Notes: generated by a model not told the origin, from the sequence alone. A stretch of DNA of 54,708 nt from Chromatiales bacterium (GCA_029879245.1 JAOUQQ010000006.1:1-54708), one strand, 5' to 3'; numbered from the stretch's first letter, positions 2,793-33,344 are shown. Made by a program: numbers and translations.

Positions 2793-3203
2793 AAGTTTAA
2801 CCCCCGATTCTATATCTGCAGTCGTGCTAACGCCATGGAGCTTAACACTAAAAAGTTGACGACGCATATTATGAGAGAACAATAGAATAACCGGGGGTCA
2901 GAGTGAATTTGATTCAGATATACTCATAGCATGAACATCGAATAAGGAGGTGAGAGATCTGCCACGAATGGGTAATAATTAATTTTGCTATGACCCTAAA
3001 CATTTCGACCCCGTTTCCCGGTGTTGTTTGCGCCAATAGGTATTTATGCTTTAATAGTTGAGCGCAATAGTGAAAAAACGGGGTCAGTACACAGTCTCCT
3101 CTAATATTAGACTTAATTGAGTTCTGCCCCAAATATCCCAAATATCAGATCAATCCTTCATGCCGTGGTCTCCCTCAACTGGACTTCAATTTGGAACATT
3201 TAT
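2793..3203. other. Intergenic region with transposase-element relics
   Basis: No gene seen. It holds the promoter side of the ankyrin lipoprotein gene, a GGGGGTCAGAGTGAATT stretch (2893-2909) of the kind found at ends of REP-associated transposase elements, AAGGAGGTG at about 2943 resembling the transposase leader, and a second degenerate element copy at 3071-3190. Confidence 0.5.
3071..3112 (+). repeat. Element-end repeat, copy 2
   Basis: Direct-orientation copy of the repeat at 1184-1226: CGGGGTCAGTACACAGT followed by CTCCTCTAATAT. It is followed at about 3156-3185 by a sequence resembling the transposase start seen after copy 1 (ATGC, GTGG, then CCTCAAC), so both the end and the start of the dead transposase appear twice. 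Confidence 0.5.
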
Positions 3204-5624
3204 TTAGTCATAATAGTAGGGTGTCTTCGCAGTCCATGAGCTCTTGGGATATTTGCTGTGGAGTCTTTCGAACCAGTGTTTGCCCGGTTGACGCTCACCC
3301 TCGCCCCAGCATGAAAGACCGCCTGAGCCGACCTTGTCACACAACACCAGGAAATGGAGTGTCTTGGCTTCGACTTCAGAACTGATATTCTCGTAATGTT
3401 GCAGCGACTTCAGAAAGTAGGTGTATGATCCTTCATCACCGTTTGTCTGCACACATTCGTCGGTGTTTTCCAGGTAGCGTTGATGTATGATCGACCAGTG
3501 TTCAGGTTCACCGTGATGTGCCAGAAAGTAAGCAATATTCATATTTCCCTTTCCCTGATCTGTTCCTGTCGCAACCATCCTGACAGCGGTTCTGATCGAA
3601 GACAGTCTACCCAATGCACTGTCGTCATACTTGTCGAACAGGGCCTGTAGCTGGTGAATTTCCCCTGTAGTGAGGTATCTCATTGCGAGGTCATGCAGCA
3701 CCAGGGTACGCATCGATGAATTCAAATCGGCATCCAGTAATTTTTGATCTTCCTGCGTGCCGCACTGTGCTGATAGATAACCAACAAGGATGGCGTCGCG
3801 AATCCCGTATTGAGAACTCAGCAGGTCGGTTAATGAGCCGGTACGCATAATATTGGTAGCAATGGCAAGTTCGACATCGGTAGAGTACGGTAGAATCTGT
3901 TTGAGTTTTGACCACGCCTCATTGGCCTCGCTGTAACGACCTGCGTGCTCGAGTGCACGTGCCGTTAAAACGCCGTGATAGTCATCAAGCTGTGAATTGC
4001 GCTTGTGATTATTTTCAAAGAAGGTGATATTCCTCTGCTCATAGGCCTCAATTGCCGCCTTAAGATAATCCAGCTCTGAGGCGATTGTGGCCAGTTCCCT
4101 GTTTGCCGAGAGATCAATCCTGCTAAGGGTGGCTTGTAGCCGGTCAACTGAGGTCAGCTCATCGTCCTGTACATAAATGGTGTACTCATTAAGCAGTGAG
4201 GCCACCTTGTGCCTGTCTTGTGAATTTAGTGTGCTTTGATACGATAGCGTTACAAGTGATGCCTCAAGCGCCTCATCAAGTAGTTTCAGGTAGATCTCTT
4301 TATTACCGCGAAGAAGTTCCACACGACGCAACAACCCGCGAGCAGAGTTTAGATAGGGACCCTCAGGGTAGTGTGTAATGTAGGAGTTGAAAGCATCATA
4401 TGCGCCATTCAGTAGTTGAATTTGATCTGGCCGCAGTTTACTGAAGGAATCCCACTCCTTCTGTGCAGCCAGTAAATAGCTGCGTGCAATTAGGTAACGG
4501 CTTGTCTGTGACAACCATCCTTTGCCACGCTGTGCAACCTGCATATAGTGACTTGCAGCCTGCTCATAGTTACCACTATAAAAATGCGTCAGTGCATGCA
4601 TGTAAAGCAGGTGAGGATCTATGACATCTGGTGCACCGGTAGCCTCTGGTGGAGTCTTTGCATTTGCGCAATCTATGAGCATCGCAATGCGCCATGCCAC
4701 AAGGAGTCGATAGGCATTGTCGTTGAGTGAGCTGACCTTAGCCGCAGAACGTATCAGGGATAAGGCATTCTCTGGTGTATTACTGGCACAGTATCCCCAG
4801 CTGTAACGGTCGTAGTCGGGTTTGTCGACTACATAGCGCTGCCGGCTATCACCTTTTGCAGGAGCAAGTTTGTCAATCGCAATGGCAAGCTCTATCTCAC
4901 TCTTCTCCTGGCTATCATTCGCGACCCGCTGTGCCAATGTACGTGCCCCGTCATAGTCACCCTCATGATACAGCACTAACGCCTCTACCAATGCCGCATA
5001 ATGGTGCAGTTGAGGGTGATCGCGTAATTGTGTAAACAGCTCATCATCACGTGGAGCAACATAGTCCTGTACATTCTGGCGACGCTGAAGTTGTGTGTAA
5101 TATTCTGCTTTGACATCGCACATCCAGACCACGTTACGTACAACTTTATCCAGCCACTCCGTATACATTTTCTCCCTGCCACCTTTGCCCTCTGGAATAG
5201 TATCCCATTGATTGTATCTGGCGTGTAAATTTCCTCTTTCGCGGCTCATAATTATGAGTTTGCTGTACTTGACCTCATCCAGCATCTTTCTTATCTCGTG
5301 GTTGCCTCGTAACGGACAGCGATCAAGAATTGAGTTGCCGCTATATTCACTACCGGTTTGAACGAATTCAATTGTTCTACCGGCTGTGCTGGTAATCGCA
5401 TTAATCTCTGCCAGGACATCGATTGATGGCTCATCCTGCCACCTGAGCTCGGCAATACCTAACGCATTCAATACATGTCGTGAATTAATGGTGGTGCTAA
5501 CCGCCGGGTCATATTTCAACGACAGCTCCAGATAAGAATCTTCATCATATTCCGGGCCACACCCCCAGGCGATTCCGAACATCAGCAACAAAAAGGCAAT
5601 TCCGTATGAGCTTTTAGTTGTCAC
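3204..5624 (-). CDS. Large TPR-like lipoprotein, function unknown
   Basis: An 806-residue predicted lipoprotein. The signal ends IAWGC (Cys22). Most of the rest is helical and full of TPR-like patterns (for example YMHALTHFYSGNYEQAASHY and ALEHAGRYSEANEAWSKLK), so it is probably a periplasmic or outer-membrane-anchored protein-binding scaffold. The start is GTG at 5624, with GAGG 8 bases upstream. It begins 2 bases after the stop of the DUF3142 gene, so the two are almost certainly translated from one mRNA and likely act together. No enzyme motif was seen. The specific function is unknown. Confidence 0.65.
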   Translation of the reverse strand: MTTKSSYGIAFLLLMFGIAWGCGPEYDEDSYLELSLKYDPAVSTTINSRHVLNALGIAELRWQDEPSIDVLAEINAITSTAGRTIEFVQTGSEYSGNSILDRCPLRGNHEIRKMLDEVKYSKLIIMSRERGNLHARYNQWDTIPEGKGGREKMYTEWLDKVVRNVVWMCDVKAEYYTQLQRRQNVQDYVAPRDDELFTQLRDHPQLHHYAALVEALVLYHEGDYDGARTLAQRVANDSQEKSEIELAIAIDKLAPAKGDSRQRYVVDKPDYDRYSWGYCASNTPENALSLIRSAAKVSSLNDNAYRLLVAWRIAMLIDCANAKTPPEATGAPDVIDPHLLYMHALTHFYSGNYEQAASHYMQVAQRGKGWLSQTSRYLIARSYLLAAQKEWDSFSKLRPDQIQLLNGAYDAFNSYITHYPEGPYLNSARGLLRRVELLRGNKEIYLKLLDEALEASLVTLSYQSTLNSQDRHKVASLLNEYTIYVQDDELTSVDRLQATLSRIDLSANRELATIASELDYLKAAIEAYEQRNITFFENNHKRNSQLDDYHGVLTARALEHAGRYSEANEAWSKLKQILPYSTDVELAIATNIMRTGSLTDLLSSQYGIRDAILVGYLSAQCGTQEDQKLLDADLNSSMRTLVLHDLAMRYLTTGEIHQLQALFDKYDDSALGRLSSIRTAVRMVATGTDQGKGNMNIAYFLAHHGEPEHWSIIHQRYLENTDECVQTNGDEGSYTYFLKSLQHYENISSEVEAKTLHFLVLCDKVGSGGLSCWGEGERQPGKHWFERLHSKYPKSSWTAKTPYYYD

Positions 5625-7592: not shown

Positions 7593-9281
7593 TCATGGGC
7601 ATTCCGGATTACATGCATTTAAGTTCGTGACAAATTTCAGCGAAATATTGCCATTATCCATATCTGCATTACGCACAGCATTCTTTTTGATTCGCATGAT
7701 TTTTGCAGAACGATCCACGGTTATGTCGAACTCAGGTGCTCCCCCCAGGGATCGTGTTAGCATAAAGTGAGCGCTTTGAAATGGAAGTTTAGAGGTCAGC
7801 ACATAGGGGATAGGTGCAGACGGACTAACAAGCACATAGACCGAGGTTGCCTTTTTTGATTCTCTGAAGTCCTGTGTTGCGGCATCCAGCGACAGCTTAA
7901 GTTTATTGCCCGTCAATTCACCGCGTACCGGAACCCTAAAGTAGGCTGGGGTGAATACGCCTGCCAAACCGGTTGTCGACACTGCTGATAAACTGCCAGG
8001 GAGCGGTTGGATCATGAACCTGACGAGTATGTCCTTTCTGACTCTGGGGTCCAGCACGGAAAAATTCTCCCACGCCTTAAATTTACTTCCGACACCCTCA
8101 ATCTCACCTGTCACGTGAATTGAATCAGAGTCGTTGGTGCGTTGATAGCGAACGTTAATCACTGCGTCGATCTCTTCATCATATTTCAACCAGGTGGTGC
8201 CATTTTCGCGCATGTTAACGTTCAGAGAAGCTTGAACGGTTCCGCTGAATTTTTGACAGAATAGCTCAAAGACACCATCGATAAACATAGGAACCAGATC
8301 AGTGATCGCACCAGCCAATCGAGCCATAGATGCTGACGGGTCTTGGATTCGTTCAACCGTTCTGTTGATGCCTTGATTGATGATCCCACGTGTTGCCGCG
8401 TTGCGGTACGACACTGGCATCCCTGATACAAGTGTATCGGCAGACAGGCCCTGCAGCAGGCTATAGGATGTAGAGACAGCACCTGAGGCCATAGTAAAGG
8501 CAAGTGATGCCGTCTTCAGGCCCTGCCCGGTATAATACAGCCCGTCACAAACGTTATGATCATTGCCAGGTGGTGTGGCACTCAAAATATGATCTGCCTC
8601 GCTAAGTTCGCTGTACATCCGGTCATAGACAGGTGTGAGGTGTTCTGCCATTGGTGGGACCTGACCAGTTATATCATCGATAATTTGCAGCGCGGCATCT
8701 ACCGCTTCAACATGCGTATCGCTTTGCGCAATCATTTCACGCAGTTGGGAGACTTTTTCAAGTGCCTCTTGCTGAGTGGGTGATACAGGGGAGCGTTCAA
8801 TGATAGTATGGATGTTGTTAATAATGGCACGAGTTTTAGATATAACGGTGGAAAGCTTTTGTTTTATCTGGTCACGTTGAGAGGAAAAGCTAACTACGTC
8901 AAATGACAGACTCTCCTGCCCCTGTCCGCCAGGACCTTTCACCAGAACAGTGTATCGACCCATCGTGTTGAAAGGTACACGATATATTTGTGAGTAGTTG
9001 CGAGCGGCATCTACCGAAACATTAAAGATTTGATTATCACCGTCTGGTGACGTTAACGTTATATTAACCAGTCGGTTATCTCTAAGTGCGGTGGCCGTAC
9101 CTGATATTGTTACGACGCCACCGGGCACAGTCGTTGACGGTGTAATAGAGGCCTCTAAAGGCATGGTGGAAGGGACGAGCGACTCAGCTCCAGCACTCAT
9201 GCAGATTAACAGCAGCACATAAACTGTGACCAGTTTGTAGAGGTACTGCTGCATATGTGGATGAAATAAGTAAAGACCCAT
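7593..9281 (-). CDS. Large exported protein with N-terminal Ig-like domain, function unknown
   Basis: A 562-residue protein. ATG 9281 is chosen because AAGGAG lies 6 bases upstream. ATG 9296 lacks such a site. A long signal peptide (hydrophobic LVTVYVLLLICMSAGAES) is followed by an Ig-like domain at about residues 30-115 (ITPSTTVPGGVVTISGTA and YRVPFNTMGRYTVLVKGPGG). A helical, possibly coiled segment follows (residues 120-240), then a beta-rich C-terminal part. It is likely periplasmic or surface exposed. I do not recognise a family. It is a single gene between the convergent methyltransferase and the diguanylate cyclase. Confidence 0.55.
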   Translation of the reverse strand: MGLYLFHPHMQQYLYKLVTVYVLLLICMSAGAESLVPSTMPLEASITPSTTVPGGVVTISGTATALRDNRLVNITLTSPDGDNQIFNVSVDAARNYSQIYRVPFNTMGRYTVLVKGPGGQGQESLSFDVVSFSSQRDQIKQKLSTVISKTRAIINNIHTIIERSPVSPTQQEALEKVSQLREMIAQSDTHVEAVDAALQIIDDITGQVPPMAEHLTPVYDRMYSELSEADHILSATPPGNDHNVCDGLYYTGQGLKTASLAFTMASGAVSTSYSLLQGLSADTLVSGMPVSYRNAATRGIINQGINRTVERIQDPSASMARLAGAITDLVPMFIDGVFELFCQKFSGTVQASLNVNMRENGTTWLKYDEEIDAVINVRYQRTNDSDSIHVTGEIEGVGSKFKAWENFSVLDPRVRKDILVRFMIQPLPGSLSAVSTTGLAGVFTPAYFRVPVRGELTGNKLKLSLDAATQDFRESKKATSVYVLVSPSAPIPYVLTSKLPFQSAHFMLTRSLGGAPEFDITVDRSAKIMRIKKNAVRNADMDNGNISLKFVTNLNACNPECP

Positions 9282-9725
9282 TGAATTCTCCTTCATAAAT
9301 CCATTTAACTACGACTCAGTTTAGGCCATGTTATAGCAGGAATCAATCAGAGGAATAATCAGGTCAGAACAATTAAAGGATGCAGAGTATTTTGGCAGGG
9401 TATTCCGGACGGTGTGTGCACAGTGAGTTCCAGTCCTGATTTTATTGGAGTCTATTTCGCACTTTGCGCGATCCCGATACTGTCTCTCATATCTGAGAGA
9501 TTATTTATAAACATGGCATTCGTGTTTATGGTAATACTTCGGTTACTGTTATTGGTATCGTTCCATCTGTGAAAAAAAGCGACATAGATTAAATGGATCA
9601 TTCTTAACATTAATGAGGTTAGTTACGATTAAAAACTGGATCAGATAAATGTTGTTTCTAAGTATCAGAAAAATCCACTCTGAGACCTGTTTAACATGAC
9701 TACATGGGGTATCCAGGTTGGCTAA
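9282..9725. other. Non-coding 444-base region
   Basis: No credible gene. It contains a perfect 7-bp hairpin, TCTCTCA-TATC-TGAGAGA (9483-9500). It must hold the promoter of the exported-protein gene read on the minus strand. Nothing else distinctive was seen. Confidence 0.4.
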
Positions 9726-11303
9726 TTACGAATAGAGACAGATTTGGTTTCTGCCGTTCTGTTTTGCCGAGTACAAAGCTTTATCTGCGTGACGAAGTAG
9801 AATGTCGGTGCTGCCGGATGCGTCCGGTACGAGTGAGGCGACACCAAAACTCATAGTGATATGTTCACTGATTGAAGAGCCTTTGTGCTCTATGTTAGCA
9901 GTGGACAAATTGTGTAAGATCTTTTCAGCGAGTTGTTTGCCGTCCTGAATATTTGCATCGATCATAAGAATAACAAACTCTTCACCACCATATCTTGCAA
10001 CAATATCTGAAGCGCGATTTAGAGACGACTTTAAGATATTGGCAACCTGTATGATGCAATCGTCACCTTGTTGATGACCATAGGTGTCGTTATATTTTTT
10101 GAAATAGTCAATATCACACATAATGACCGATAACGATGATTTATCGCGGCGATGCCTGTTCCATTCTTTTGCGAATTCCTGATCAAACATTCTTCTGTTA
10201 GCAATGCCTGTCAATGGGTCATGGAGTGACAGACGCAGTAACTCATCATTGAGGTCGTTTAAGGAGTCTGTTTTAGATTGTATTGTGTCGAGTAATGTAT
10301 TAATGGAAGTTGACAGCTGGCCAAATTCATCACGGTTACTGTAGATTACTCGTTTGTTGTAGTTGAGTGAGGTGGATATGTTTTGAATCTGTTGGAGGAT
10401 GGTCGATAAAGGAGTAAGGATGTTGTTATTGATTAGAAAAATAATAAGCGCGATTGTTGCCACACCTACAGCGATAGCTGACAGGGCGGAAAGATTGATG
10501 ACGTTTTTACCTTCTTGTGTGATGTGTCGCTGATAAGCGATCTCAATGGTAAATGCATGACTACCATAGATGTCCTCGATAATCATTCTAGTGATAATCT
10601 GTTGATTATCAGTCAAAAATGAAATCAGTGGATCAGAATCCGACGGCTCGACATCTGTGTTATTAAGCTTGCGTGTGTCTTTAAATGATAGGTTGAGTTG
10701 CGTCAGGTCTTTTAAGGTATTTTCTTGCAAATACCGACCGAAAATCAGATAGCCATAAGAAGGGCCGTGATTGTTGGAATGGAGAATATGACGGGATGAA
10801 ATGGCCATGATATTTCCATTGTTTATTACAATGCCTGAAACAGATTGGCTTTCTTCTTCTGGCTCCTTGGGTGCGGGTAGAAGTTTATTGGTGAGAGTGA
10901 CGCTGTCTGCTGAGACGCTCTTTAATTGGCTTGCATCACCATTGAGGTCGATTGACCTAATCCAGAGAGTTTTTCCAGAGGTGTCAATAAATTGCATGTG
11001 ATGAATATTCAGGTTCTCAAGTAAGCTTTCATCAGCAAGGTTGCTTTCTATGTAGTCGGTCGAGCGAGTAGAGATGAATTCGACCGTATCGTTCCACGAA
11101 GCCCAATCCAGGGTAAGATTATCGAGATGGGTGAGTTCCTGCTTGAGTGCCTGCTGAAGCCTGTGGTTGTTCTTCCAGATTTCATTTTTCTCTATAGCAT
11201 CGAATTCGGGCATTATTAATGCCCATGTGAGGGTATACTGAACTGCAGACACGAATAACAACAGGCCTATAAAGACGGTACTTGCTTTCTGTTTGAGTGT
11301 CAT
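9726..11303 (-). CDS. Diguanylate cyclase with CHASE4 sensor and HAMP
   Basis: An inner-membrane receptor that should make cyclic di-GMP. ATG 11303 is used (AGGA upstream, start MTLKQKAS), giving 525 residues. Order: a TM helix near residues 7-27; a periplasmic CHASE4 domain (FDAIEKNE and LTLDWASWNDTVEF are typical) to about 260; a second TM helix (SAIAVGVATIALIIFLI); a HAMP linker; then a GGDEF domain with active-site GGEEF. RASD five residues before it is an intact RxxD inhibitory site, so product feedback is expected. The CHASE4 ligand is unknown. Monocistronic. Confidence 0.85.
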   Translation of the reverse strand: MTLKQKASTVFIGLLLFVSAVQYTLTWALIMPEFDAIEKNEIWKNNHRLQQALKQELTHLDNLTLDWASWNDTVEFISTRSTDYIESNLADESLLENLNIHHMQFIDTSGKTLWIRSIDLNGDASQLKSVSADSVTLTNKLLPAPKEPEEESQSVSGIVINNGNIMAISSRHILHSNNHGPSYGYLIFGRYLQENTLKDLTQLNLSFKDTRKLNNTDVEPSDSDPLISFLTDNQQIITRMIIEDIYGSHAFTIEIAYQRHITQEGKNVINLSALSAIAVGVATIALIIFLINNNILTPLSTILQQIQNISTSLNYNKRVIYSNRDEFGQLSTSINTLLDTIQSKTDSLNDLNDELLRLSLHDPLTGIANRRMFDQEFAKEWNRHRRDKSSLSVIMCDIDYFKKYNDTYGHQQGDDCIIQVANILKSSLNRASDIVARYGGEEFVILMIDANIQDGKQLAEKILHNLSTANIEHKGSSISEHITMSFGVASLVPDASGSTDILLRHADKALYSAKQNGRNQICLYS

Positions 11304-11568
11304 GGCTACGTCCTGATCCTTCACTATATGTATATTGACCACGCCCATAGGCGTTATAACGATACTATCGTGTTTGGCTAATATTCGCACCCTGTGTTTT
11401 AGTGTGCATAATCTGCAACATTCAGGAGCGTGTAATAACTCTCATACCGTACTTTTTTGTAGGGATAAATCCCATATAGAGTGTGGTTTCTAGTCTGGTT
11501 TCCACCAATAAGAATTCATGCTTTAATAACCAAGAATAACAGTGTGAAACTAATTGAGGCTCAGGTTC

Positions 11569-22879: not shown

Positions 22880-22930
22880 GCTCTGTGAATAAAGGGTAGA
22901 GATAAACCATCGATAATAAATCGAGTCCAA

Positions 22931-25630
22931 TTAGATAGGGTTGAGATCAAAGTCGATGCCATTAATAAAAGGGTTATCCGCATAAATAGTAATGACCTCA
23001 TCATGCGGTTGCTGCAGATCCAGTTCCTCAAGTTGGTCGGCAGAGATACGTACCGTACTAACACCCAGCGGTGCATGAGTAAGGATGTAGAAACCATCAA
23101 ATGCGGTTTTTGTGGTAGAGACGATGTTGCCACCACCATCAACAAGCTCGACGGTAACGTTACCGACTCCTACCTTACGACCATTTCTGAGTAGGTAGAC
23201 AGTGCCGTCTATCTCACCAGTGAAGGTGACGGGAAAGTCGACCTGAGAGGCATGACCTGGACGGGGAACTATTTCAATTCCATCGAGTGTAGACTTCCAT
23301 GTGGGATCTGTCAGGGTCGAGGGATCAATAGTAATGTTAGTTGGTCTGTGCGATGGAAGGCCGCTAATAAAGAGAATGCCATCTTCATTTGAACGTTCCA
23401 TCCGTGATCCATTGTTAATGCGTAAGCCAATGTTACGAAGTGGCTGGTCGCCGTTGTTGAAGAGGCCGTCCTGATTGGAATCTATAAAGAAACGCGCTGA
23501 GATACTACCCTGATTGGCGATAGTACGAGCGTCATTAATGAATTGTTTATGCCGTGGCTCATACCCGATGCCAATAGAGAAGTTAAGATCAAGATTGAGA
23601 TCATGATTGGTATTGTAGCTCCCGCCAAAACTGAGGCCATAACCTCGTGATAGTCTGGTTGCCCGGGCACTAATTGAGGTCATATCCTGTGAAAGAGAGT
23701 GATTGATGCCATAACCGAATTGATAGTTTCCACTTCGTCCTGGTGTTAAGTGGAGATCAATGTTGTCGAAGCGTTGTTCAGGTTTAATTGTGTAGCCAAG
23801 TGTTCCGCGAATACGTGACTGTCCAAACTGAGTGCTGAGATTAAGATGGCCATTGGCCGTGGCATCCAGACTGCTCAATTTCTGGTGATGCAGATAATTT
23901 GTAATAGCAAAGCCGTGAGTGCTCATGGATATCTGATTGGTAGTCTCCACCAGCTCATCACCTGTTACATACTCTTTGCGCTTAATATCGAGCAAAATGG
24001 GAATGCGGGGCAGAAAAGAGGGGGGGATAGCACTGTTTAAGGTGATCTGACTCTCTCGCTTCATCTCTGGCAGGACGACTGGATACTCCTCGCTATAAAA
24101 GCGGTTAAATGCGGTGTCATGAAGAGCAATTGCAACACCACCAACACGTGTTTGCAATCCAAGCTCAACGGCATTGCCACTGGCGCTGTCGTCGATTGCG
24201 TAAAGCGAGGCTAGCACCGCATCCATGTAGCCGGTAAAGCCGGCCTTTAGATAGTCGTGCCGGATATAGTTACCGCTGGCATCGAGTAGGGGAATGGAAA
24301 GATGATTGAGGTGAGCAGTAAGGTTACTACGAAGGCCGTAGTTATATTGCAGTGTTGACCTGTGATTATCGTTTTCATCACTGATAGCAGAGAGCCGGTA
24401 GTAGTGCTCACCCGTTGGCGTCAACTGATTACTCAACTGAAATAACATGCTCTCCTCTCGTACCTCTCCCTTTGGTCCATAAAAGACCAGACGAAAGTGG
24501 TTGCTACCAAATAGTAGCGGGACATCCTGAAAGTCATATTGGCCGTCAGCCGCATCGGGCTGGTAGCCTAACAGGGCATTATTGCGATAAAGCTCTACCT
24601 CCCATCCAGGCAGTAAGACACCGGTAAATCGGTGGCGTTCAAACTCCATCGGTAAACCGAGAGGGTGGCTGCTCACGGTTACTCCGTACTCGGTATTGCT
24701 TGCGGTATTGATCAGTGCAACACGCGGTTCAAGAACATGGCCAAATTGATACTGTGTTGCCCCCATAGGACCAAGAAGCTGACCATCGGGATCACTTCGA
24801 CCAAGTGTTAAACGAAAGATATCAACACCCTCCTGATCGTTGGCTGAGATATAAGCACTGGCCTCGTGCTGTAATAGATCTCCTGTCGCATAGGTAGTGG
24901 AACGAACCGTTGTCTCGTCACCATTATCTGAAAAGCGCTGACCGATACTTATGGTCTGATCGATGAAGGGAACATCTGCATAAAGATAGGGGTCATTGAT
25001 GCGTGTAAATTTTGGCGTGTTGCGTGAATCGTGGTGTGAAATTTTACTGCTTCGCTGCTCTCGCTCCATACGCAACTGAAAGGGAAGGGGTTGGCTGGAA
25101 CTTATTGTGAGACGAGAAGCGTATAGATCAACGTTAAAAGTAATATCCAGCCACTGCATGAGTAAATTTGAATCAACATAGATGTCATCCACGATGGGTT
25201 GTACGAGTTCGACAGGGTAGTTGCTACTTCTAGCCCGGATAGTCACTTCATTGCGAGTGATATCCAGATGAAAGCTGTTCTCCTCAGCAAAGAAAAAGCC
25301 TGAGGCACCCTCCTGATCAACCGTTATTGCAAGATCGAGTATCGATGAAAGGTGCCCGAGCGGGAGCAGTGTCGTGTTCTGGAACTGGTAGGCGGCGATT
25401 ACATCATCAAAGCGGTAACCTCCTGCATTGATCTCAAGTATACGAAGATCCGTGTCTTCTGGATGCCATTTAGATGGTGGTGTGGAACTGCCTGAGGCGA
25501 AATGGGGATCACTTTGATGAGGTGTCAGCTCGGTGGATAGAGAGCTTCCTGTTTCAGCATAGAGAGTGAATGGTATAGCGTAGAGTAATAGAGCTGCCGC
25601 CAGGCGTATGCAAATTGTCAGCTTCCCCAT
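22931..25630 (-). CDS. Usher-like outer-membrane protein of a DUF4402 pilus locus
   Basis: An 899-residue outer-membrane protein with a signal peptide (LAAALLLYAIPFTLYAET). A large central beta-barrel region has alternating strands (YQFGYGINHSLSQDMTSISA). The plug-like segment WEVELYRNNALLGYQPDAAD, then GQYDFQDVPLLFG, is typical of ushers. The N-terminus (residues 60-190) carries two repeats like copper-amine-oxidase N domains (LLPLGHLSSILDL; DDIYVDSNLLMQWLDI) instead of the usual FNxxFL domain. The end has a Ca-loop-like DSNQDGLFNNGD and a carboxypeptidase-regulatory-like domain. It resembles alternative ushers such as EcpC in outline. The start is 11 bases after the chaperone stop. Its role is to export the DUF4402 subunits. 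Confidence 0.65.
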   Translation of the reverse strand: MGKLTICIRLAAALLLYAIPFTLYAETGSSLSTELTPHQSDPHFASGSSTPPSKWHPEDTDLRILEINAGGYRFDDVIAAYQFQNTTLLPLGHLSSILDLAITVDQEGASGFFFAEENSFHLDITRNEVTIRARSSNYPVELVQPIVDDIYVDSNLLMQWLDITFNVDLYASRLTISSSQPLPFQLRMEREQRSSKISHHDSRNTPKFTRINDPYLYADVPFIDQTISIGQRFSDNGDETTVRSTTYATGDLLQHEASAYISANDQEGVDIFRLTLGRSDPDGQLLGPMGATQYQFGHVLEPRVALINTASNTEYGVTVSSHPLGLPMEFERHRFTGVLLPGWEVELYRNNALLGYQPDAADGQYDFQDVPLLFGSNHFRLVFYGPKGEVREESMLFQLSNQLTPTGEHYYRLSAISDENDNHRSTLQYNYGLRSNLTAHLNHLSIPLLDASGNYIRHDYLKAGFTGYMDAVLASLYAIDDSASGNAVELGLQTRVGGVAIALHDTAFNRFYSEEYPVVLPEMKRESQITLNSAIPPSFLPRIPILLDIKRKEYVTGDELVETTNQISMSTHGFAITNYLHHQKLSSLDATANGHLNLSTQFGQSRIRGTLGYTIKPEQRFDNIDLHLTPGRSGNYQFGYGINHSLSQDMTSISARATRLSRGYGLSFGGSYNTNHDLNLDLNFSIGIGYEPRHKQFINDARTIANQGSISARFFIDSNQDGLFNNGDQPLRNIGLRINNGSRMERSNEDGILFISGLPSHRPTNITIDPSTLTDPTWKSTLDGIEIVPRPGHASQVDFPVTFTGEIDGTVYLLRNGRKVGVGNVTVELVDGGGNIVSTTKTAFDGFYILTHAPLGVSTVRISADQLEELDLQQPHDEVITIYADNPFINGIDFDLNPI

Positions 25631-25641
25631 CTCTCATTCAG

Positions 25642-26511
25642 TTAGAGGGGCAGTAGTGCCTCAGCGATCAGGCCCTGTTGTTCATCTTTTCCGGACTCAA
25701 GGAAGAGGATGCGAATTTTACCCTTATCCAGGGAGACACCCTCAGGGATAGAGAGTGGCATAGAGTAATGTCTGACGCTGTTGGGCGTGTAGACGGCAAT
25801 TCCGTTGGCCAGGGCAATGACCAGTGGCTTCTCACCATTTTCACGCAAATATATGGCGCGAAAATCACCATAAACTGAGCTACTACCACTTCTCACCATA
25901 TCTACAGCGATTTGTGGTGAAGGGTGTGCTTTATCGGCCGGGATAATATGCGGCCTTTCCAGCGTTAGCTGACTCTCCAGTTTACCGTGACGGACGATAA
26001 CAGGAATTGAGATCCCAATCACCGGGATAATCTCGACCGTTATCCCCTCTTTTGGCGGGGCAACGGTGGCCTCCACGGCACTGCTTGTTGGCTTGGGGAT
26101 CGACTGAAACAGAAGGTGTGAACGGTACTCACCCTGTTCCAAATCACGTGGCTTTCTCAACATGATTCGGACAACCTGCGATTGTCCGGGTTGCAGCGAA
26201 ATCTGGCGCGGGGAGTAACGAAGTAACGGGTCGGAAAACATGCCTTCCGCACTATCGTCGAGTGGGGAAAATTGCCCATCCTCTGTCATCGCCTGGCGAA
26301 TGAAAGAGATACGAAAGTCACCGGCTGTATCACCCGAATTGATCAGGGTAACCTGAGCGGTACGCACATTGTCTTCAAAAACAACCCGCGATGGGGTAAC
26401 CATCAGGTTGGCTGCAGCATGGGCAACGACAGGCAGTGCCAATAGTAGCAGTACAACCAGTCTTTCTGATATCACTCTAGAGCTGCGGATGAGTATGCGC
26501 ATACACAGCAT
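25642..26511 (-). CDS. PapD-like periplasmic chaperone
   Basis: A 289-residue periplasmic chaperone with a signal peptide ending AHAAA. Its first Ig-like domain has VTPSRVVFEDNVRTAQVTL, and the G1 strand pattern SPRQISLQPGQSQVVRIMLR matches PapD-family chaperones. Domain 2 covers about residues 160-280. It should bind DUF4402 subunits and donate a strand. The start is ATG 26511, or ATG 26502, which has a better-spaced GGGGA. It precedes the usher gene by 11 bases and follows the 167-residue subunit gene. Confidence 0.8.
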   Translation of the reverse strand: MLCMRILIRSSRVISERLVVLLLLALPVVAHAAANLMVTPSRVVFEDNVRTAQVTLINSGDTAGDFRISFIRQAMTEDGQFSPLDDSAEGMFSDPLLRYSPRQISLQPGQSQVVRIMLRKPRDLEQGEYRSHLLFQSIPKPTSSAVEATVAPPKEGITVEIIPVIGISIPVIVRHGKLESQLTLERPHIIPADKAHPSPQIAVDMVRSGSSSVYGDFRAIYLRENGEKPLVIALANGIAVYTPNSVRHYSMPLSIPEGVSLDKGKIRILFLESGKDEQQGLIAEALLPL

Positions 26512-26548
26512 TCCCCGGTTCTGTTGTTGTTTATAATTGCTAGCACCA

Positions 26549-26574
26549 CCTATCCGGGCTTACGCCCAGATAGG
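26549..26574 (-). other. Intercistronic hairpin between subunit and chaperone genes
   Basis: A near-perfect hairpin, CCTATC-c-GGGC paired with GCCC-a-GATAGG around a TTAC loop, lies between the 167-residue subunit stop and the chaperone start. No U-tract follows, so it looks like an mRNA-stabilising element that lets the subunit be made in excess. Confidence 0.5.
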
Positions 26575-26594
26575 AATGGCTGCCGTACGTTACG

Positions 26595-27098
26595 CTACTG
26601 ATAATTGACGGTAACGGAATAGGCGGATGCACTGGTGTAGAGTCCTGCTGGAGCTAATGGAGGTATCGTCAACGTACCACCCACATAGATCGTGTCAGCC
26701 GCCGTACCGTCAAGTGTATAAGGTGAGGCCAGAGAGGATGTCAGCCCGCTAAGTGTCAACGTGGTAGCACCATTGGCCAAAGGGTTAACGACGGCAAGCA
26801 CAATGGTCACGGCAAGACCGGTCTTTCCGCCAATTAAAAACTTCCCTGACGAGATGGTTGAGGTTACAGGCAAACCAGTGGTTATTGAGCGGAGTGGCAA
26901 TGCGCCTGCGGTTATAGTCACCGTATCACCGGCGGCATCTGGTACAAACGCGCCAAAATTGAGGGTGGCCTGTTCTGTGAGGGTGACAGGGGCAACAATC
27001 TCCGCATCGGCCTTACTGTTTAGCGTTGCGGCGACGGCGGTTGTGCTTAATAGAGTGGCCAGTATGGAAGCTGTGCCCAGAGTAAGAAGAGTTTTCAT
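26595..27098 (-). CDS. DUF4402 pilus subunit (167 residues)
   Basis: A secreted subunit with an N-terminal signal peptide (SILATLLSTTAVAA). The DUF4402 pattern is clear: APVTLTEQATLNFGAFVPD, GDTVTITAG and the C-terminal SAYSVTVNYQ strand. No Cys. It probably polymerises by donor-strand exchange and, being the last subunit before the chaperone and followed by a hairpin, may be the major pilin. ATG 27098 follows GGGGGTATCGCC. The function is inferred from the locus. Confidence 0.75.
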   Translation of the reverse strand: MKTLLTLGTASILATLLSTTAVAATLNSKADAEIVAPVTLTEQATLNFGAFVPDAAGDTVTITAGALPLRSITTGLPVTSTISSGKFLIGGKTGLAVTIVLAVVNPLANGATTLTLSGLTSSLASPYTLDGTAADTIYVGGTLTIPPLAPAGLYTSASAYSVTVNYQ

Positions 27099-27249
27099 GG
27101 CGATACCCCCGCTTGCCCTATCCAGACGGACAGAGAGTTAAATTAGGATACTAAATCGATTAGTGCTGCCCCTGATGGTAGGCGATTTATTAAGTATCTG
27201 CAATAACTGTGCGATTTATATCGAATTACAGTCACACAATGAGGGTGTA

Positions 27250-27804
27250 CTAGTTGTAGTCGACCGTGACAGCAACCGGAATTACGTAGGCGCCAATAGG
27301 CTGGTTGGGGGAGATGTTGAGTGTTGCGCCTATATAGAGCATCTGCCGACCACTGTTATCGAGAAGCCCGTTTTGTTCCGGCAGACTGGTAAAACTGTGG
27401 ACAACCATACTGGTTGTGGTTGAATTGTTGAGTACACTGGAGATGGGTAGTCTAATCGAATAGCTGGAGTTGGGGGTACCAGTAACCTCAAAACTTGCAG
27501 GTGAACCATCTAATGCAGAGCTGAGGTCAGTTGCCCCAGTAAAGGTTTGCGTACCGGTTGGTGATATGGTGACCGTGCCACCGGTTGGCATCGTCGGGAT
27601 ATTGCCAAAACTGAGGTCACTACGCGCTGTGATGCTGATTGTCTCAATGACATCTGCGGTAACACGGGCGATAGCCGTTGCCGCCTGTGGAGAACTCCAG
27701 GCAAAGAGCACGATGGCACTGCTGATAACCGACAGAGCGATAGTGACCCTTTTCAGGAACTGTATGGGCGATTTAGCGTTCATTGTCTTCATAGAGCGAA
27801 CCAT
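27250..27804 (-). CDS. DUF4402 pilus subunit (184 residues)
   Basis: A second DUF4402 subunit. ATG 27804 gives 184 residues, with GGCGGAACCCCA upstream; a TTG reading from 27843 is less likely. The signal peptide includes VTIALSVISSAIVLFAW. Core: DVIETISITARSDLSFGNI, GGTVTISPTGTQ and a C-terminal VIPVAVTVDYN. It lies between the two-domain subunit and the 167-residue subunit, so it may be a minor or linking subunit. Confidence 0.75.
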   Translation of the reverse strand: MVRSMKTMNAKSPIQFLKRVTIALSVISSAIVLFAWSSPQAATAIARVTADVIETISITARSDLSFGNIPTMPTGGTVTISPTGTQTFTGATDLSSALDGSPASFEVTGTPNSSYSIRLPISSVLNNSTTTSMVVHSFTSLPEQNGLLDNSGRQMLYIGATLNISPNQPIGAYVIPVAVTVDYN

Positions 27805-27906
27805 TGGGGTTCCGCCTGACCAATTCAAGTTGACGTTGAGCAATCAATGCAAAATTCTCCCGTTTACGACCAGGCATAGTGCTATTAGCATCTACCCTGA
27901 AGGGTA

Positions 27907-28908
27907 TCAATTGTAGTTCACAGTTAAACTGTATGGGATTCCACTTCCCGTTGCTGTTGAATAGGTACCCGGTGTTTGCAGGGGAGCAAGGTTGAGGGTG
28001 GCACCAACGTTAAATGTCTCAATTCCGCCTGGGGGGATTGTACCGCTGCTGTTGTGGGTAAAGCTGTTGGCGATAATCTGTGCCCCTGCCCCGTTATCCA
28101 GCGTGGCCGTAGTGCTGATGAGTGTGGAATAGCTGAGATTGGGTTCACCAGTAAGCTGAAAGGTTCCCGCAGTGCCAGGCAGAACATTGATCTTGGCTGC
28201 GTCACCGGTAACGCTACGCTGGCCGAGTGTATCGATGGTAACGCTACTTGCGACGGTGCCGGCGGCGATGGTACCAAAGTTCAGAGAGATCGTTTCAGCC
28301 AGATTGAGTGGTGATGCAGAGGTCGCCGTCGCCGTGCTGCTTAGCGAAACAATGGTGCCTGACTGTGTCAAATCTACGGTAAAGGCGGGAGAGGTATAGA
28401 GTCCCGCCGCTTGAGGAAAGGTGGTAGTCAGAGTTCCCTGAAAGGTGAAGGTAAGGGGAAGATTGGCTGTTGATAGCCCTAGCAGTGGCAAGGCTGTCGG
28501 GGTAGGAGCCAGTGTCGGCTCACTGACCAGAATATTGGTCAGGGGTATAGTCGTTCCGGCCCCCGCAAGTGGTGCGGGCATGATTCCCCAACTGAGGTCA
28601 AATCCGTAGGTGCCGCACACAGCAGGATCCAGCGTATTATTTACGGTGACAGTGAAGGCAGTAGTTGGCGTGGCATTGGAGAGTGTTATGGCACCTGTTG
28701 GGGTAATGAGGCCATTGCTATCCATCACCAGGCTTCCACTACCCAGTTCAATGGAGAAGGTGCCAAACGCGAGGGGCTGGGCGCTGGTGACAACCCAGCG
28801 ACTCTTGCACTGTTTTATGTTCGGCGGGGGCGGAGCACAATGTGCCCCTACGCTGGCAAGCAATAGCGTGAAACACACCAGCATGGGCAGATTTTGCCTG
28901 TATAACAT
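27907..28908 (-). CDS. Two-domain DUF4402 protein, possible tip adhesin
   Basis: A 333-residue secreted protein, the first gene of the operon. After a signal peptide ending AHCA comes a first domain with a Cys pair (QCKSRW and AVCGTYGFDLSW), then a second, DUF4402-like domain at about residues 190-333 (LAETISLNFGTIAAG, then GIPYSLTVNYN). In chaperone-usher pili a two-domain protein of this kind is the tip adhesin, with the second domain accepting the next subunit. That role is inferred. The promoter lies in 28909-29079. Confidence 0.7.
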   Translation of the reverse strand: MLYRQNLPMLVCFTLLLASVGAHCAPPPPNIKQCKSRWVVTSAQPLAFGTFSIELGSGSLVMDSNGLITPTGAITLSNATPTTAFTVTVNNTLDPAVCGTYGFDLSWGIMPAPLAGAGTTIPLTNILVSEPTLAPTPTALPLLGLSTANLPLTFTFQGTLTTTFPQAAGLYTSPAFTVDLTQSGTIVSLSSTATATSASPLNLAETISLNFGTIAAGTVASSVTIDTLGQRSVTGDAAKINVLPGTAGTFQLTGEPNLSYSTLISTTATLDNGAGAQIIANSFTHNSSGTIPPGGIETFNVGATLNLAPLQTPGTYSTATGSGIPYSLTVNYN

Positions 28909-29079
28909 TAAATGGATGCCTGCTTTTTGTCGTTATGTAACCTGAATCTATCCGCGACTATTTCGCTATCTGTTATTAATTTCATCGGGCGCTACCGTAA
29001 ATCTACCCCACATGCCGAGAGGGCGTCCACCAGATGACTATACACCTAAGTGATTGTGAGATATAAAAATATTCGATTG

Positions 29080-29931
29080 CTATCCCATCATTTTGCCTTG
29101 AAGCACGATAAGTGACTTCTCTGCTACGTCTAGATCTGCGGCTACCACTGCGCACTTGGCCTGCAACAAAAAGAAGAGCCCCGCACGTGAGCCATGCAGA
29201 CTCTCATAGTTTGCCATCCCTTTAGCGATGATCAACTCGGCCTCATTAAATTGCTGACGAAACTGCTCGTTACAGCGTTCCAGCAAGGTACCCAGAGTAG
29301 CGGCGCCATGATCGATCAGCTCGCAAATTTTATCGATGCCTGCGGCGATGGCATCTTCACGGGTAGCGTCATTCACTGCAGGGCCACCCTTGACCACATA
29401 AGTGACAGGAATGTGAAGTTGCTCGATTAATAGTCTGTCCATTACTGTCTCACCGGCATTATCGGCGAGAAAAAGAACGCCTTTTGCCCCTGCCAGCGCC
29501 TCTCTGAGCTGTTCGATATGATTAATCATCGGCTCAGTGGTTAGTACCCGTTCGATGCTTGCCTCCAGGTCGTACTGATCACTCACACCCAGATCGATAA
29601 TGTTACCGGCAATGGCAAGGCGAACGGCAGTTTGCAGCGGGTCGTCTGACTCCATCACCAGTTGCTTCAATTTGGGATAGAGCGAGAGGGCATGGGCCGT
29701 CGCCTCACTTTTCGCCTCCTGATAGGGGTCAGAAGTTCGGGTGATATCACGGATCAGGGCGTGGATGTCGGAGGCTGTAACCGGCGGCGTCTCATCGGCA
29801 GGGGAGGCATCAAGGCGGCGACGGATCTGTAATAGCAGATGCTCGGTGTCCCGCTCGTTGAGGCCAACTCGCTCTGCACTCTGTAGCGCCTGGCGCTGAA
29901 AACAGCGCTTGCACTCGGGACTCGCCTGCAT
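29080..29931 (-). CDS. DUF89 family metal-dependent phosphatase
   Basis: A 283-residue protein of the DUF89/ARMT1-like group (prokaryotic subfamily I). Hallmarks: an N-terminal CKRC pair, AGNIIDLGV, the core FLADNAGETVMD (metal-binding Asp/Asn) and KGMANYESLHG. DUF89 proteins are metal-dependent phosphatases of damaged sugar phosphates or phosphopantetheine-like metabolites. The target here is unknown. The ATG is 5 bases after the Slt stop, so it is in the slt operon. Confidence 0.8.
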   Translation of the reverse strand: MQASPECKRCFQRQALQSAERVGLNERDTEHLLLQIRRRLDASPADETPPVTASDIHALIRDITRTSDPYQEAKSEATAHALSLYPKLKQLVMESDDPLQTAVRLAIAGNIIDLGVSDQYDLEASIERVLTTEPMINHIEQLREALAGAKGVLFLADNAGETVMDRLLIEQLHIPVTYVVKGGPAVNDATREDAIAAGIDKICELIDHGAATLGTLLERCNEQFRQQFNEAELIIAKGMANYESLHGSRAGLFFLLQAKCAVVAADLDVAEKSLIVLQGKMMG

Positions 29932-29936
29932 GGTGA

Positions 29937-31859
29937 TTAAAGGGCGTTGTTGATATGGCCTACTGCGGGCATTCGCTCCTGCAGGCGGGTGATCGGCTTG
30001 TCGAGACGCTGGTCATAAAAGACGCTGTAGGCCATAACGCGACGTACATATTTACGGGTCTCGTTAAAGGGCATGTTCTCTATCCAGATATCGGCATCGA
30101 CATGGCCATCCTCAGGGAACCACTTATCAACACGGTGTGGACCGGCGTTATAGGCGGCGGTGGCCAGTACCGGGTTGTTAAAGCGATCCAGCACCTGTCG
30201 CAGGTAGGCGGCACCGAGGCGAATATTGATATCGGGTACAAGTAACTGCTCGGTGTCGCTAATCGGGTAGTTGAGTCTTTTGGCGACCGCCTTACCGGTA
30301 CTCGGCATCAACTGCATCAACCCCATGGCCCCTGCAGGTGAGCGTGCATCCGGCATCATGGCACTCTCCTGGCGGGCTACCGCGTAGACCCATGAGGGGT
30401 CGAGGTCGCGGGTCTCTGCCTCGCGGGTAACGGTGCCGCTATGGGCCAGCGGGAAGCGAATGTCGAGGTCACTGAAATAGCGAGCCTTGGCCAGGGTAAG
30501 GAGGGCGGTATCGTACCACTTCCACTCATCGGCCAGTTTACCGGCTACGAGGATCTCCTCCTTGTTCATTCGGGCAACGGCGCTCTCCCACTCCAGACGG
30601 GCCTCTTTGGTCAGTAGTAGCATATAGAGTTCGTGGGCACGAACCATGCCGGGTGTCTGTTTCAGTGCCTTGATGGCAGCCGGATCAACATCTACCGGTT
30701 GATGATCAAGATTGTATTCACCATCGATCTGATCGGCGGCAAGAAAGCCGTAGTAGCCCCTGTCACCACTAACTGTATGGTAGAGGTGCTCCGCCTGCTG
30801 CTGCTCACCCAGTTGCTCATTGATGCGGGCCTGCCAGTACTGCCAGTCGACACTCTGACGCTCTGTAACAGGCATCGACTCAATCCAGGTTCTTGCGGCC
30901 CTCCAGTTACTCTGGCGAAGTGCCAGACGGGTGGCCCAGGTGCGGTCATGCTGGGTAACTGACTCAGGGGTGATCTGGGCATACCAGATAAGACCGCGAC
31001 TATCGCCGTCATAGGCAAAGTTGCGGGCGATGGCGCGATTGATTTCGTTATTTTGTGCGGTGCTGAAACGGTATTTTCCACTCACCTTGTTCCACAGTTT
31101 TGCCGCCCTGGCGGCATCACGTCGCGCCAGGCGCTGTAGACCGTGAGCGACGATGTGGCGGTGGCGAGCGCTGTCTTTTTTTATCTGGTCACTTCGTTCG
31201 ATCAGTGTCGGATCGTTATAAACACGACGCCATAAGGTGACTGTCTCACGGTCATCACCGCTTAGCCCCTTGGCGAGGTGGCGTGCCAGTGAGGTATTCC
31301 CCTGATGCATCGCCAGCTCAACACGCTGCCAACGCAGGGCAGGGGTGATGCCGCCACCCCTCTCCCACGCCTGGAAGAGATCATCGCAGGCGTCAGGCTG
31401 CGATTTTCCCGATAGCCACAGTTTTTCAGCGCCTGCCCAGGCACTCTTCTTATCACCGGTATGTAACTGGGCGGTGTGGAGACGACACTGCATAACGGTG
31501 CTGCCACCTCGGTAAAAGTGGAGAAACTCCGGCCAGCGCTTTTCATCTGCCAGACGTTTGAGCCATGCCCCGCGCAGATGCGAGGCGATGGGAAGTGTGT
31601 CGTAACTGGTGAGAAAGGCCTCAATGGTGGCGGGAGGTTGTTCGCCCAGCCTGTCACGTAGTTTCCAGTAGATAAGGTAGGGGTAGAGCGGATAGTCTTT
31701 GAGTTGCTGAATATTACGACCAAAGACCTCGTAGTTGCCCTGCTCCAGTGCCTTCTTGGTTTCGAGAAAGAGTACCCGCTCTGCGTGGCCGTCATTGGCC
31801 TGGCCATTGGCGCCAATAGAGATCAGCAGTGCGCCCAACAGGGCACTGAAACTCTTCAT
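29937..31859 (-). CDS. slt: Soluble lytic murein transglycosylase
   Basis: About 640 residues from ATG 31859, which gives a clean signal peptide (MKSFSALLGALLISIGANGQA). A longer form to 31919 is possible. A superhelical domain of alpha repeats covers the first 400 residues. The C-terminal lysozyme-like catalytic part has VYAVARQESAMMPDARSPAG (catalytic Glu in RQES), then AMGLMQLMP. It cleaves the glycan strand between MurNAc and GlcNAc in the periplasm, forming 1,6-anhydro ends. The DUF89 gene follows in the same operon. Confidence 0.9.
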   Translation of the reverse strand: MKSFSALLGALLISIGANGQANDGHAERVLFLETKKALEQGNYEVFGRNIQQLKDYPLYPYLIYWKLRDRLGEQPPATIEAFLTSYDTLPIASHLRGAWLKRLADEKRWPEFLHFYRGGSTVMQCRLHTAQLHTGDKKSAWAGAEKLWLSGKSQPDACDDLFQAWERGGGITPALRWQRVELAMHQGNTSLARHLAKGLSGDDRETVTLWRRVYNDPTLIERSDQIKKDSARHRHIVAHGLQRLARRDAARAAKLWNKVSGKYRFSTAQNNEINRAIARNFAYDGDSRGLIWYAQITPESVTQHDRTWATRLALRQSNWRAARTWIESMPVTERQSVDWQYWQARINEQLGEQQQAEHLYHTVSGDRGYYGFLAADQIDGEYNLDHQPVDVDPAAIKALKQTPGMVRAHELYMLLLTKEARLEWESAVARMNKEEILVAGKLADEWKWYDTALLTLAKARYFSDLDIRFPLAHSGTVTREAETRDLDPSWVYAVARQESAMMPDARSPAGAMGLMQLMPSTGKAVAKRLNYPISDTEQLLVPDINIRLGAAYLRQVLDRFNNPVLATAAYNAGPHRVDKWFPEDGHVDADIWIENMPFNETRKYVRRVMAYSVFYDQRLDKPITRLQERMPAVGHINNAL

Positions 31860-32180
31860 GAACTTCTGGTGTTGGCGCTTCACGGTGGTGCGGAACCCCC
31901 CCAATCTGTTGGTCTGCATCTTGAAGTATAGTGCCTAACTTACTGAAAAATTGAGTGAAGGAAAAGTGATTTGGTGATTGTGAGAACTATGTCCGGTTTT
32001 AAACAAGGCTCTTGCGAAGCTTTTCTACCAGCGAACATCTGAAGGGATCAAAAAGAGGTCACGCAACTTGTTCAAATCCATATACATTTACCATGAAGTT
32101 GGTGGTATCGTTGCGTAACACTAGATTATTTACAGTTATTTCAATAAGTTATACGGATATAAAATTTTGGAGAGATAGTC
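31860..32180. other. Divergent intergenic region
   Basis: About 320 bases between the divergent slt and the 387-residue protein gene. The last 70 bases before the latter are AT-rich with promoter-like TTTACA and TATACG. No gene seen. Confidence 0.4.
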
Positions 32181-33344
32181 ATGCAGTACGGGCCACGTGA
32201 GATCACCAACCCCTTTCGTCCGATACCGCTGGAGGTACCGGAGGGGATGAAACCCAACGAGTTCTTCAACTCCACCGAGAACCTTAACGATCTGGTGCAT
32301 AACAACGGGCTGCTCATCAATCCCGAAGACCTGTTGCTCTATCGTAAGGCGTTGGGCCACTCCAACGAGTTCGACACCTCGATCATCTACAACACCTCGA
32401 AGACGATCCTCAACCCGCTGGGTCGCCCGGTGCGCCGCACCCAGGTACCGGACAACGTCAGGCACGTGTGGAATCGGATGAACCAGATCATCATCGAGTA
32501 CATGCTGGAGCAGTACCCTGACCCGTCCGAATATCTGGTGCTGGCCGGAGAGGCGAGCCTTGACGCCACCTGGCCGCTCACCTCGCCCGGGGTGCCGAGT
32601 ATCCGCATGCTGCACAACCACTTCATCGTCTTCAATAAACAGCAACTGCGTGATGCCCCGCTTGCCGACCCGAGTAACCCCAACCTTACCGACGGCGGCC
32701 AGCACTCCCTGTTTCAGGCCCACATGCGTGAGGTCTACCGTGCCTTTATTGAGGGACTCGATCTGGAGATCCTGCGCCCCTGTAACGATGGCAGTTGCAA
32801 GATAGAACTGACCGGCTACCCGCAGGGGCTACCGGCGTGGGAGATCATGGGAGGTGCCGATGCGCTCAGGGAGGTGCGCTTCTGGAAGGAGTACGACACC
32901 ATCCTCAAGGGCTTTATCGATTTCTATCGCACTTTCTTCAGTCAGGTCTCGACGCGTAACGCACCGATGCCGAAAGAGGTCTACTTCCCTGCGCTGGTAG
33001 AGGAGAAGCTACTCTTCAACAACGACTTCCTGAAGGCGGCGAAGATGGTGCGAGATCGCTGTATCGTCGACCCCGCCTACGCCAACGCGATCCGCTGGCA
33101 GCCCGCCTTCAAACAGCTCATCTACCGCAACGACAACGGCAAGCTCATCGTCACCATCAGCCAGAATTCTATCGGCAATGCGATCACCGAGCTGCTTGGG
33201 GTGGTGGTGAAACGTACCCCCGATGCCGAGGCCTATGAGCTGAGCGAACCGGCACTGATTGAAAAGCTGCTGGCGGTGAGAAAGCGTCTGGTGGATGCGG
33301 ATCTGGGTGAGGGGATCGCCACCGAACACTGGGCGGCAGAGTGA
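32181..33344 (+). CDS. Unrecognised conserved-looking protein, 387 residues
   Basis: A soluble protein with no signal or TM helix. ATG 32181 has GGAG 8 bases upstream. Codon use is strongly biased to C-ending codons, suggesting high expression. Visible features: SPGVPSIRMLHNHFIVFNKQ, an LHNH pattern that could recall the nucleotide-binding loop of the HIT/GalT group, PCNDGSC (a Cys pair), and a helical end. I do not recognise a family and assign no function. It converges with mqo, with 16 bases between the stops. Confidence 0.6.
   Translation: MQYGPREITNPFRPIPLEVPEGMKPNEFFNSTENLNDLVHNNGLLINPEDLLLYRKALGHSNEFDTSIIYNTSKTILNPLGRPVRRTQVPDNVRHVWNRMNQIIIEYMLEQYPDPSEYLVLAGEASLDATWPLTSPGVPSIRMLHNHFIVFNKQQLRDAPLADPSNPNLTDGGQHSLFQAHMREVYRAFIEGLDLEILRPCNDGSCKIELTGYPQGLPAWEIMGGADALREVRFWKEYDTILKGFIDFYRTFFSQVSTRNAPMPKEVYFPALVEEKLLFNNDFLKAAKMVRDRCIVDPAYANAIRWQPAFKQLIYRNDNGKLIVTISQNSIGNAITELLGVVVKRTPDAEAYELSEPALIEKLLAVRKRLVDADLGEGIATEHWAAE

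Follow-up and report, generated by a model that had tools for sequence, protein, structure and literature searches.

A DUF4402 gene cluster that may represent a distinct branch of the chaperone-usher pathway

What do proteins of the DUF4402 family (PF14352), a Pfam family without an assigned function, do when their genes lie next to those for a PapD-like chaperone and an usher-like protein? The question is raised by a run of five minus-strand genes at positions 22931-28908 of a contig (C49) from a Chromatiales bacterium. This contig, 54,708 bases long and referred to here as the window, belongs to a genome of 2.7 Mb in 197 contigs with a completeness of 98%. An earlier note on this DNA had described the run as one operon of three DUF4402 subunits (one of them with two domains), a chaperone and an usher-like barrel, and open reading frame (ORF) calling and Pfam searches agree with that description. 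In the order of transcription the genes encode the three DUF4402 proteins, designated sub1, sub2 and sub3, the chaperone and the usher-like protein (Table 1). All five frames are open, all five products begin with a hydrophobic, signal-like stretch, as the note had also seen, and the gaps between the ORFs as called are 63, 151, 83 and 11 bases, the last of these being the chaperone-usher spacing given previously. As judged from sequence, the five genes very probably encode all the components needed to assemble a surface fibre by the chaperone-usher route. They are the sole candidate chaperone-usher system found in the genome, since searches of it returned no DUF4402 gene beyond sub1, sub2 and sub3, no match to the usher family PF00577 and no match to SCPU (PF05229), the spore coat U family that provides the subunits of archaic chaperone-usher systems.

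Family searches gave few hints as to the nature of the 899-residue product of the last gene. Pfam detected no PF00577 match at E ≤ 1 and only weak SdrD_B and CarboxypepD_reg matches near the C-terminus, a profile search with the protein returned SdrD only, an NCBIfam scan of the operon's proteins named weak fimbrial chaperones and nothing else (missing the usher), and neither the usher nor the chaperone gave a match when searched directly against the sequences in PDB. We therefore turned to relatives gathered from genome contigs (44-48% identity) and from whole genomes. Pfam searches of 11 of these identified SdrD_B/CarboxypepD_reg domains at the C-terminus of all 11, Cu_amine_oxidN1 at the N-terminus of six, a weak PF00577 match in three and TcfC (0.086) in one. 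When 18 relatives were combined into a family profile and compared by hhalign with known ushers, the profile matched archaic ushers at 98.5% (E 3.3e-15) over 565 columns (profile columns 232-862) and the classical ushers of E. coli at 96% (4e-9). The outer-membrane barrels LptD and FhuA, used as controls, gave 0.2% and 0.8%, reversed usher profiles gave 0.3% and 19%, and EcpC, the only alpha usher compared, gave 7%. The family profile also retrieved PF00577-type ushers in other genomes, one of which (L105) was confirmed with PF00577, and the plug-domain position of known ushers aligned with the conserved patterns LLPGWEVELYRN...GQYDFQDVPL..G.N.FRLVFYGP.G. Finally, a Foldseek search of PDB with an AlphaFold model of the protein placed PapC at the top (6.7e-4), followed by several PapC and FimD structures, and the middle (plug) domain of Caf1A matched the model with a probability of 1.00 and a TMt of 0.67 over 76 columns.

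By profile and fold comparison the 899-residue protein is thus homologous to ushers in its barrel, plug and C-terminal region, and it would presumably act as a pore. Its predicted layout is that of a signal peptide, an N-terminal alpha/beta domain (residues ~55-180), the barrel, the plug or middle domain (~331-400) and two C-terminal beta domains resembling SdrD_B and CarboxypepD_reg. These last domains, together with the product names in RefSeq, would suit a surface protein of the MSCRAMM or carboxypeptidase-regulatory-like kind that is no usher at all, an explanation that we consider highly improbable, as the SdrD_B/CarboxypepD_reg matches span fewer than 60 of the 899 residues, profile and fold comparisons both speak for an usher barrel and plug, and the protein has a chaperone as its constant partner. 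On some usher relatives a SPOR domain is present at the C-terminus (L014, 7786-11400; L050, 10859-14092), and a Pseudoalteromonas copy (L161) is flanked by separate SPOR-domain genes (3509-3994 and 8811-9449). This association hints at a possible connection of the assembly platforms with denuded peptidoglycan, at the septum or elsewhere.

Pfam recognized the chaperone as PapD_N, its score of 24.1 bits lying just above the cut-off (23), and a profile search with it returned only a weak match to FimC. By hhalign it matched archaic chaperones at 98% (2e-13; 97% with the signal peptide removed), classical chaperones at 90% and EcpB at 14%, from which we conclude that it is homologous to PapD-like chaperones. 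An invariant proline is found across the chaperone superfamily, and a conserved arginine (Arg89 of CsuC) is exclusive to archaic and alternative chaperones, whereas classical chaperones use an Arg/Lys pair (Pakharukova et al., PMC4654587). Among 19 relatives of the chaperone, the superfamily proline (P101 here) and the non-classical arginine (R130 here) are each kept in 18. The column of the classical Lys112 holds proline in all 19 (P170 here), as it does in four of four archaic chaperones, whereas four of four E. coli classical chaperones have lysine, and the column of the classical Arg8 holds arginine in 16. No assignable positions in the chaperone were found for Tyr196 and Arg174 of CsuC. 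Because of this pattern of columns we classify the chaperone, on its sequence, as archaic-like with one classical feature retained. Profile comparison, fold search and residue signatures thus support the identities that had been proposed for the chaperone and the usher-like protein.

If the usher is an usher, to which lineage does it belong? The closest set for the usher, chaperone and subunit profiles alike is the archaic one (the sigma or Csu type), which has the same kinds of genes as the operon, homologous barrel, plug and C-terminal regions in the usher, a non-classical chaperone with an arginine anchor and proline in place of the classical lysine, subunits that end in G.Y..t.tVTV.Y and a two-domain subunit. 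The operon could accordingly encode an archaic pilus whose sequences have diverged, with no separate branch to be recognized. We regard this as unlikely. PF00577 misses the usher entirely, yet it found the archaic ushers used here. Unlike in archaic systems, DUF4402 proteins take the place of SCPU subunits, which is how Pfam assigns them, usually no subunit gene follows that for the usher, and the usher carries the SdrD_B/CarboxypepD-like domains at its C-terminus. The N-terminal 215 residues of the usher also look unlike the corresponding domains of archaic and classical ushers (2.9% and 0.2%), although a difference in this domain is suggestive only, because the comparison of archaic with classical ushers fails there too (1.1%). 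In addition, in a maximum-likelihood tree of 36 ushers (with long branches and only four archaic members) a 99/97 branch sets the 22 DUF4402-type ushers and a three-member sister group apart from the classical, archaic and EcpC ushers, with the archaic ushers siding with the classical ones. The 22 group together at 91/99, and the sister group consists of usher-like proteins that likewise have no PF00577 match (L048, 5206-7776; L049, 198-2771; L153, 4561-7056).

By this computed position the usher lineage lies outside the sampled classical, archaic and alpha (EcpC) ushers. With the classical systems of E. coli (FimD/PapC) the operon has in common the logic of the pathway, the homology of the usher and the arginine at the Arg8 position of the chaperone, but it differs from them in having no Lys112 and in its subunits, which have no detectable similarity to those of the FimA type (2%). 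With the alternative (alpha; ECP/CFA-I) systems it shares the non-classical arginine found in EcpB, but the profile matches to EcpC and EcpB are poor and TcfC appeared in a single relative. On balance we lean slightly towards the view that operons of this kind, found in Alpha-, Beta- and Gammaproteobacteria, form a distinct, deep and unrecognized branch of the chaperone-usher pathway, in which the usher would recruit its substrates through a different N-terminal domain and assemble fibres of DUF4402 subunits. Reported schemes recognize six usher clades, and a representative survey screened distant candidates by PF00577 and/or flanking chaperone genes (PMC3559732); such screening could explain why the DUF4402-type ushers were missed. 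No mention of DUF4402 or PF14352 and no description of the system was found in the literature searched, from which subscription journals were largely absent.

We now consider the subunits. All three exceed the curated DUF4402 cut-off of Pfam, none matches SCPU, and their C-termini are the matching strands that had been noted before (VTVNYQ, VTVDYN and LTVNYN), DUF4402 domains ending in G.Y...V.V.Y, as do chaperone-usher pilins. Both halves of sub1 match the DUF4402 profile (2.6e-9 and 1.4e-33); its first domain is divergent, with a proline-rich mature N-terminus and a cysteine, and its second is a standard DUF4402 domain. The sub2 protein is 41% identical to the subunit at the equivalent place in a related locus (L012). 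In a model of sub3 (predicted local distance difference test, pLDDT, 72) the beta strands begin at residue 38 and are preceded, after the signal peptide, by a disordered N-terminal extension, which in the model would be compatible with a free donor strand. Comparison of profiles of mature domains (59 DUF4402 and ~31 SCPU) gave a match of 82%, with 0.2% for the reversed control. This test is conservative, because SCPU and FimA-type subunits themselves give 0.3% in it. An initial DUF4402-SCPU figure of 93% owed part of its height to signal peptides, and the mature-domain comparison took its place. One domain (G414:C6) is recognized by the SCPU (9e-14) and DUF4402 (5e-4) models alike. The proposal that DUF4402 proteins are pilins assembled by strand donation is moderately supported by these profiles.

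The earlier note had also cast the two-domain protein as a tip adhesin. Proteins with two DUF4402 domains are found again at some loci (G146 and G337), but because the closest relatives of the operon (L011 and L012) lack one, we put forward this role for sub1 tentatively, as somewhat less than an even prospect. Spore coat U proteins are the comparison case for a different outcome, namely that the usher exports DUF4402 proteins as a surface coat or as short oligomers, with neither a pilus nor a tip adhesin. The similarity of DUF4402 to SCPU domains, the uneven occurrence of the two-domain protein and the fused or adjacent SPOR domains, which hint at localization to the cell wall, would all be consistent with a coat. 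An operon with several subunits whose C-termini are alike is, on the other hand, better suited to a polymer with distinct positions, and a coat seems to us fairly unlikely.

For a polymeric fibre assembled by the operon we propose the following sequence of events. The DUF4402 subunits would reach the periplasm as incomplete beta-sandwich domains. There the PapD-like chaperone would lend a strand to each subunit and clamp the carboxylate of its C-terminal ...V-x-V-x-Y-x strand, probably through the non-classical arginine (R130). The chaperone would then hand the subunits to the outer-membrane usher for secretion and for polymerization by strand exchange, in which every subunit would have its fold completed by the N-terminal extension of the next one to arrive. 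The product would presumably be fibre-shaped, and the two-domain protein may cap its tip, as an adhesin.

Is the association of the three kinds of genes a general one? The order subunit(s)-chaperone-usher is shared by loci L011, L012, L013, L045, L093-L101 and others; it recurs in Alpha-, Beta- and Gammaproteobacteria, and several subunits with alike C-termini are found per operon. At 25 usher loci that we tabulated, the chaperone gene is directly upstream on the same strand in ~18, nearby in another arrangement in others (L016, L050 and L051) and at a contig edge in one (L053). Counting a chaperone anywhere on the examined stretch or a contig edge, 22-23 of the 25 are accounted for, so that loci lacking the chaperone, which the earlier note had named as an argument against its proposal, are the minority. 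Among 398 evenly sampled genomes of Pseudomonadota, with DUF4402 counted above its cut-off, the usher was present in 13, DUF4402 in 11 and both in 10 (10/3/1/384; Fisher p 1.3e-16). In the lone genome with DUF4402 and no usher of this family (G618), two DUF4402 genes are accompanied by a chaperone gene and by one for an 831-residue protein of the sister usher group, a third type of usher. DUF4402, chaperone and usher are thus linked across the phylum.

Several observations weigh against the reading of the operon as a chaperone-usher assembly line. The usher model, built on an alignment of three sequences, is poor (pLDDT 36, with residues 331-400 confident), and the barrel and plug are therefore supported by profiles and one confident block of 70 residues. 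The sub3 model found no significant match in a fold search of PDB and viral libraries, type 1 pilus subunits appearing at ranks 11 and 47 only. The local match between DUF4402 and SCPU lies mainly in the C-terminal 28 columns, and the comparison without signal peptides gave 17% with a small set, the figure of 82% being that of the larger one. Orphan DUF4402 genes, single or paired, occur with no chaperone or usher within ~8 kb (L145-L152); their genomes, of an alphaproteobacterial-looking family (f213), bear the full operon elsewhere, and the orphans may encode alternative subunits or reflect a different role for the domain. One genus (g114) scatters many DUF4402 genes, with usher-like and chaperone genes apart and the usher-like gene divergent from a two-domain DUF4402 gene. 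Lastly, one usher-bearing genome (G053) yielded neither DUF4402 nor a chaperone in profile searches.

The operon lies between an ARMT1-like gene and a HAD (PNKP-like) gene. It is absent from a genome of the same genus (G001); the equivalent interval holds one other gene of ~1.4 kb in G007, and the flanking genes are rearranged or adjacent without the operon in G001 and G010. Because the interval differs or its flanks are rearranged in these three genomes, the operon is an accessory locus. In RefSeq the same operon is found on plasmids, some of them conjugative, of Polaromonas, Sphingopyxis and Pseudoalteromonas, where the usher is named a "carboxypeptidase(-like) regulatory domain" or "SdrD B-like" protein, and the plasmid copy of Polaromonas JS666 sits between IS6 transposases. 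Such patchiness and mobility could mean that the operon has decayed or is carried along as a mobile passenger, without function in this genome. We judge this very unlikely in view of the five open frames, the signal peptides and the tight spacing of the genes. A pattern scan established no promoter or terminator at the borders of the operon, promoter-like sites being fewer than in shuffled sequences and terminators at chance number.

Taken together, the results tie DUF4402 to a chaperone-usher assembly line, re-identify as pilus ushers a family listed in RefSeq as "carboxypeptidase(-like) regulatory domain-containing", and point to a widespread, seemingly unnoticed chaperone-usher branch in Pseudomonadota. 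They lead one to expect that many bacteria of the environment (sphingomonads, Polaromonas and Pseudoalteromonas) form surface fibres, some of them plasmid-borne, and would provide an outgroup for questions of usher-chaperone recruitment and of the origin of the pathway.

Table 1. Genes of the operon in the order of transcription (positions in the window)
Feature	Position	Strand	Length and basis
sub1: two-domain secreted DUF4402 protein, candidate tip subunit	27907..28908	-	333 aa; DUF4402 2.2e-21 (Pfam)
sub2: secreted DUF4402 pilin-like subunit	27250..27843	-	197 aa from TTG; DUF4402 2.2e-30 (Pfam)
sub3: secreted DUF4402 pilin-like subunit that may be the major one	26595..27098	-	167 aa; DUF4402 7e-17 (Pfam)
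PapD-like periplasmic chaperone, non-classical (archaic-like) type	25642..26511	-	289 aa; PapD_N over cut-off
Divergent outer-membrane usher	22931..25630	-	899 aa; profile comparison and fold search

The true start of sub2 is probably a later ATG rather than the TTG. We also note three features of the surrounding DNA. The interval from the HAD gene to a gene at 32181 (window 22880-32200) varies among family members, its contents being ARMT1-like, Slt-like transglycosylase or DUF3025-like genes or the pilus operon. The same contig encodes a CHASE4-HAMP-GGDEF diguanylate cyclase (window 9726-11390), which nothing in the data connects with the operon. Finally, a single ORF of 504 aa (window 1368-2882) combines ankyrin repeats with an extensin-like C-terminal domain.

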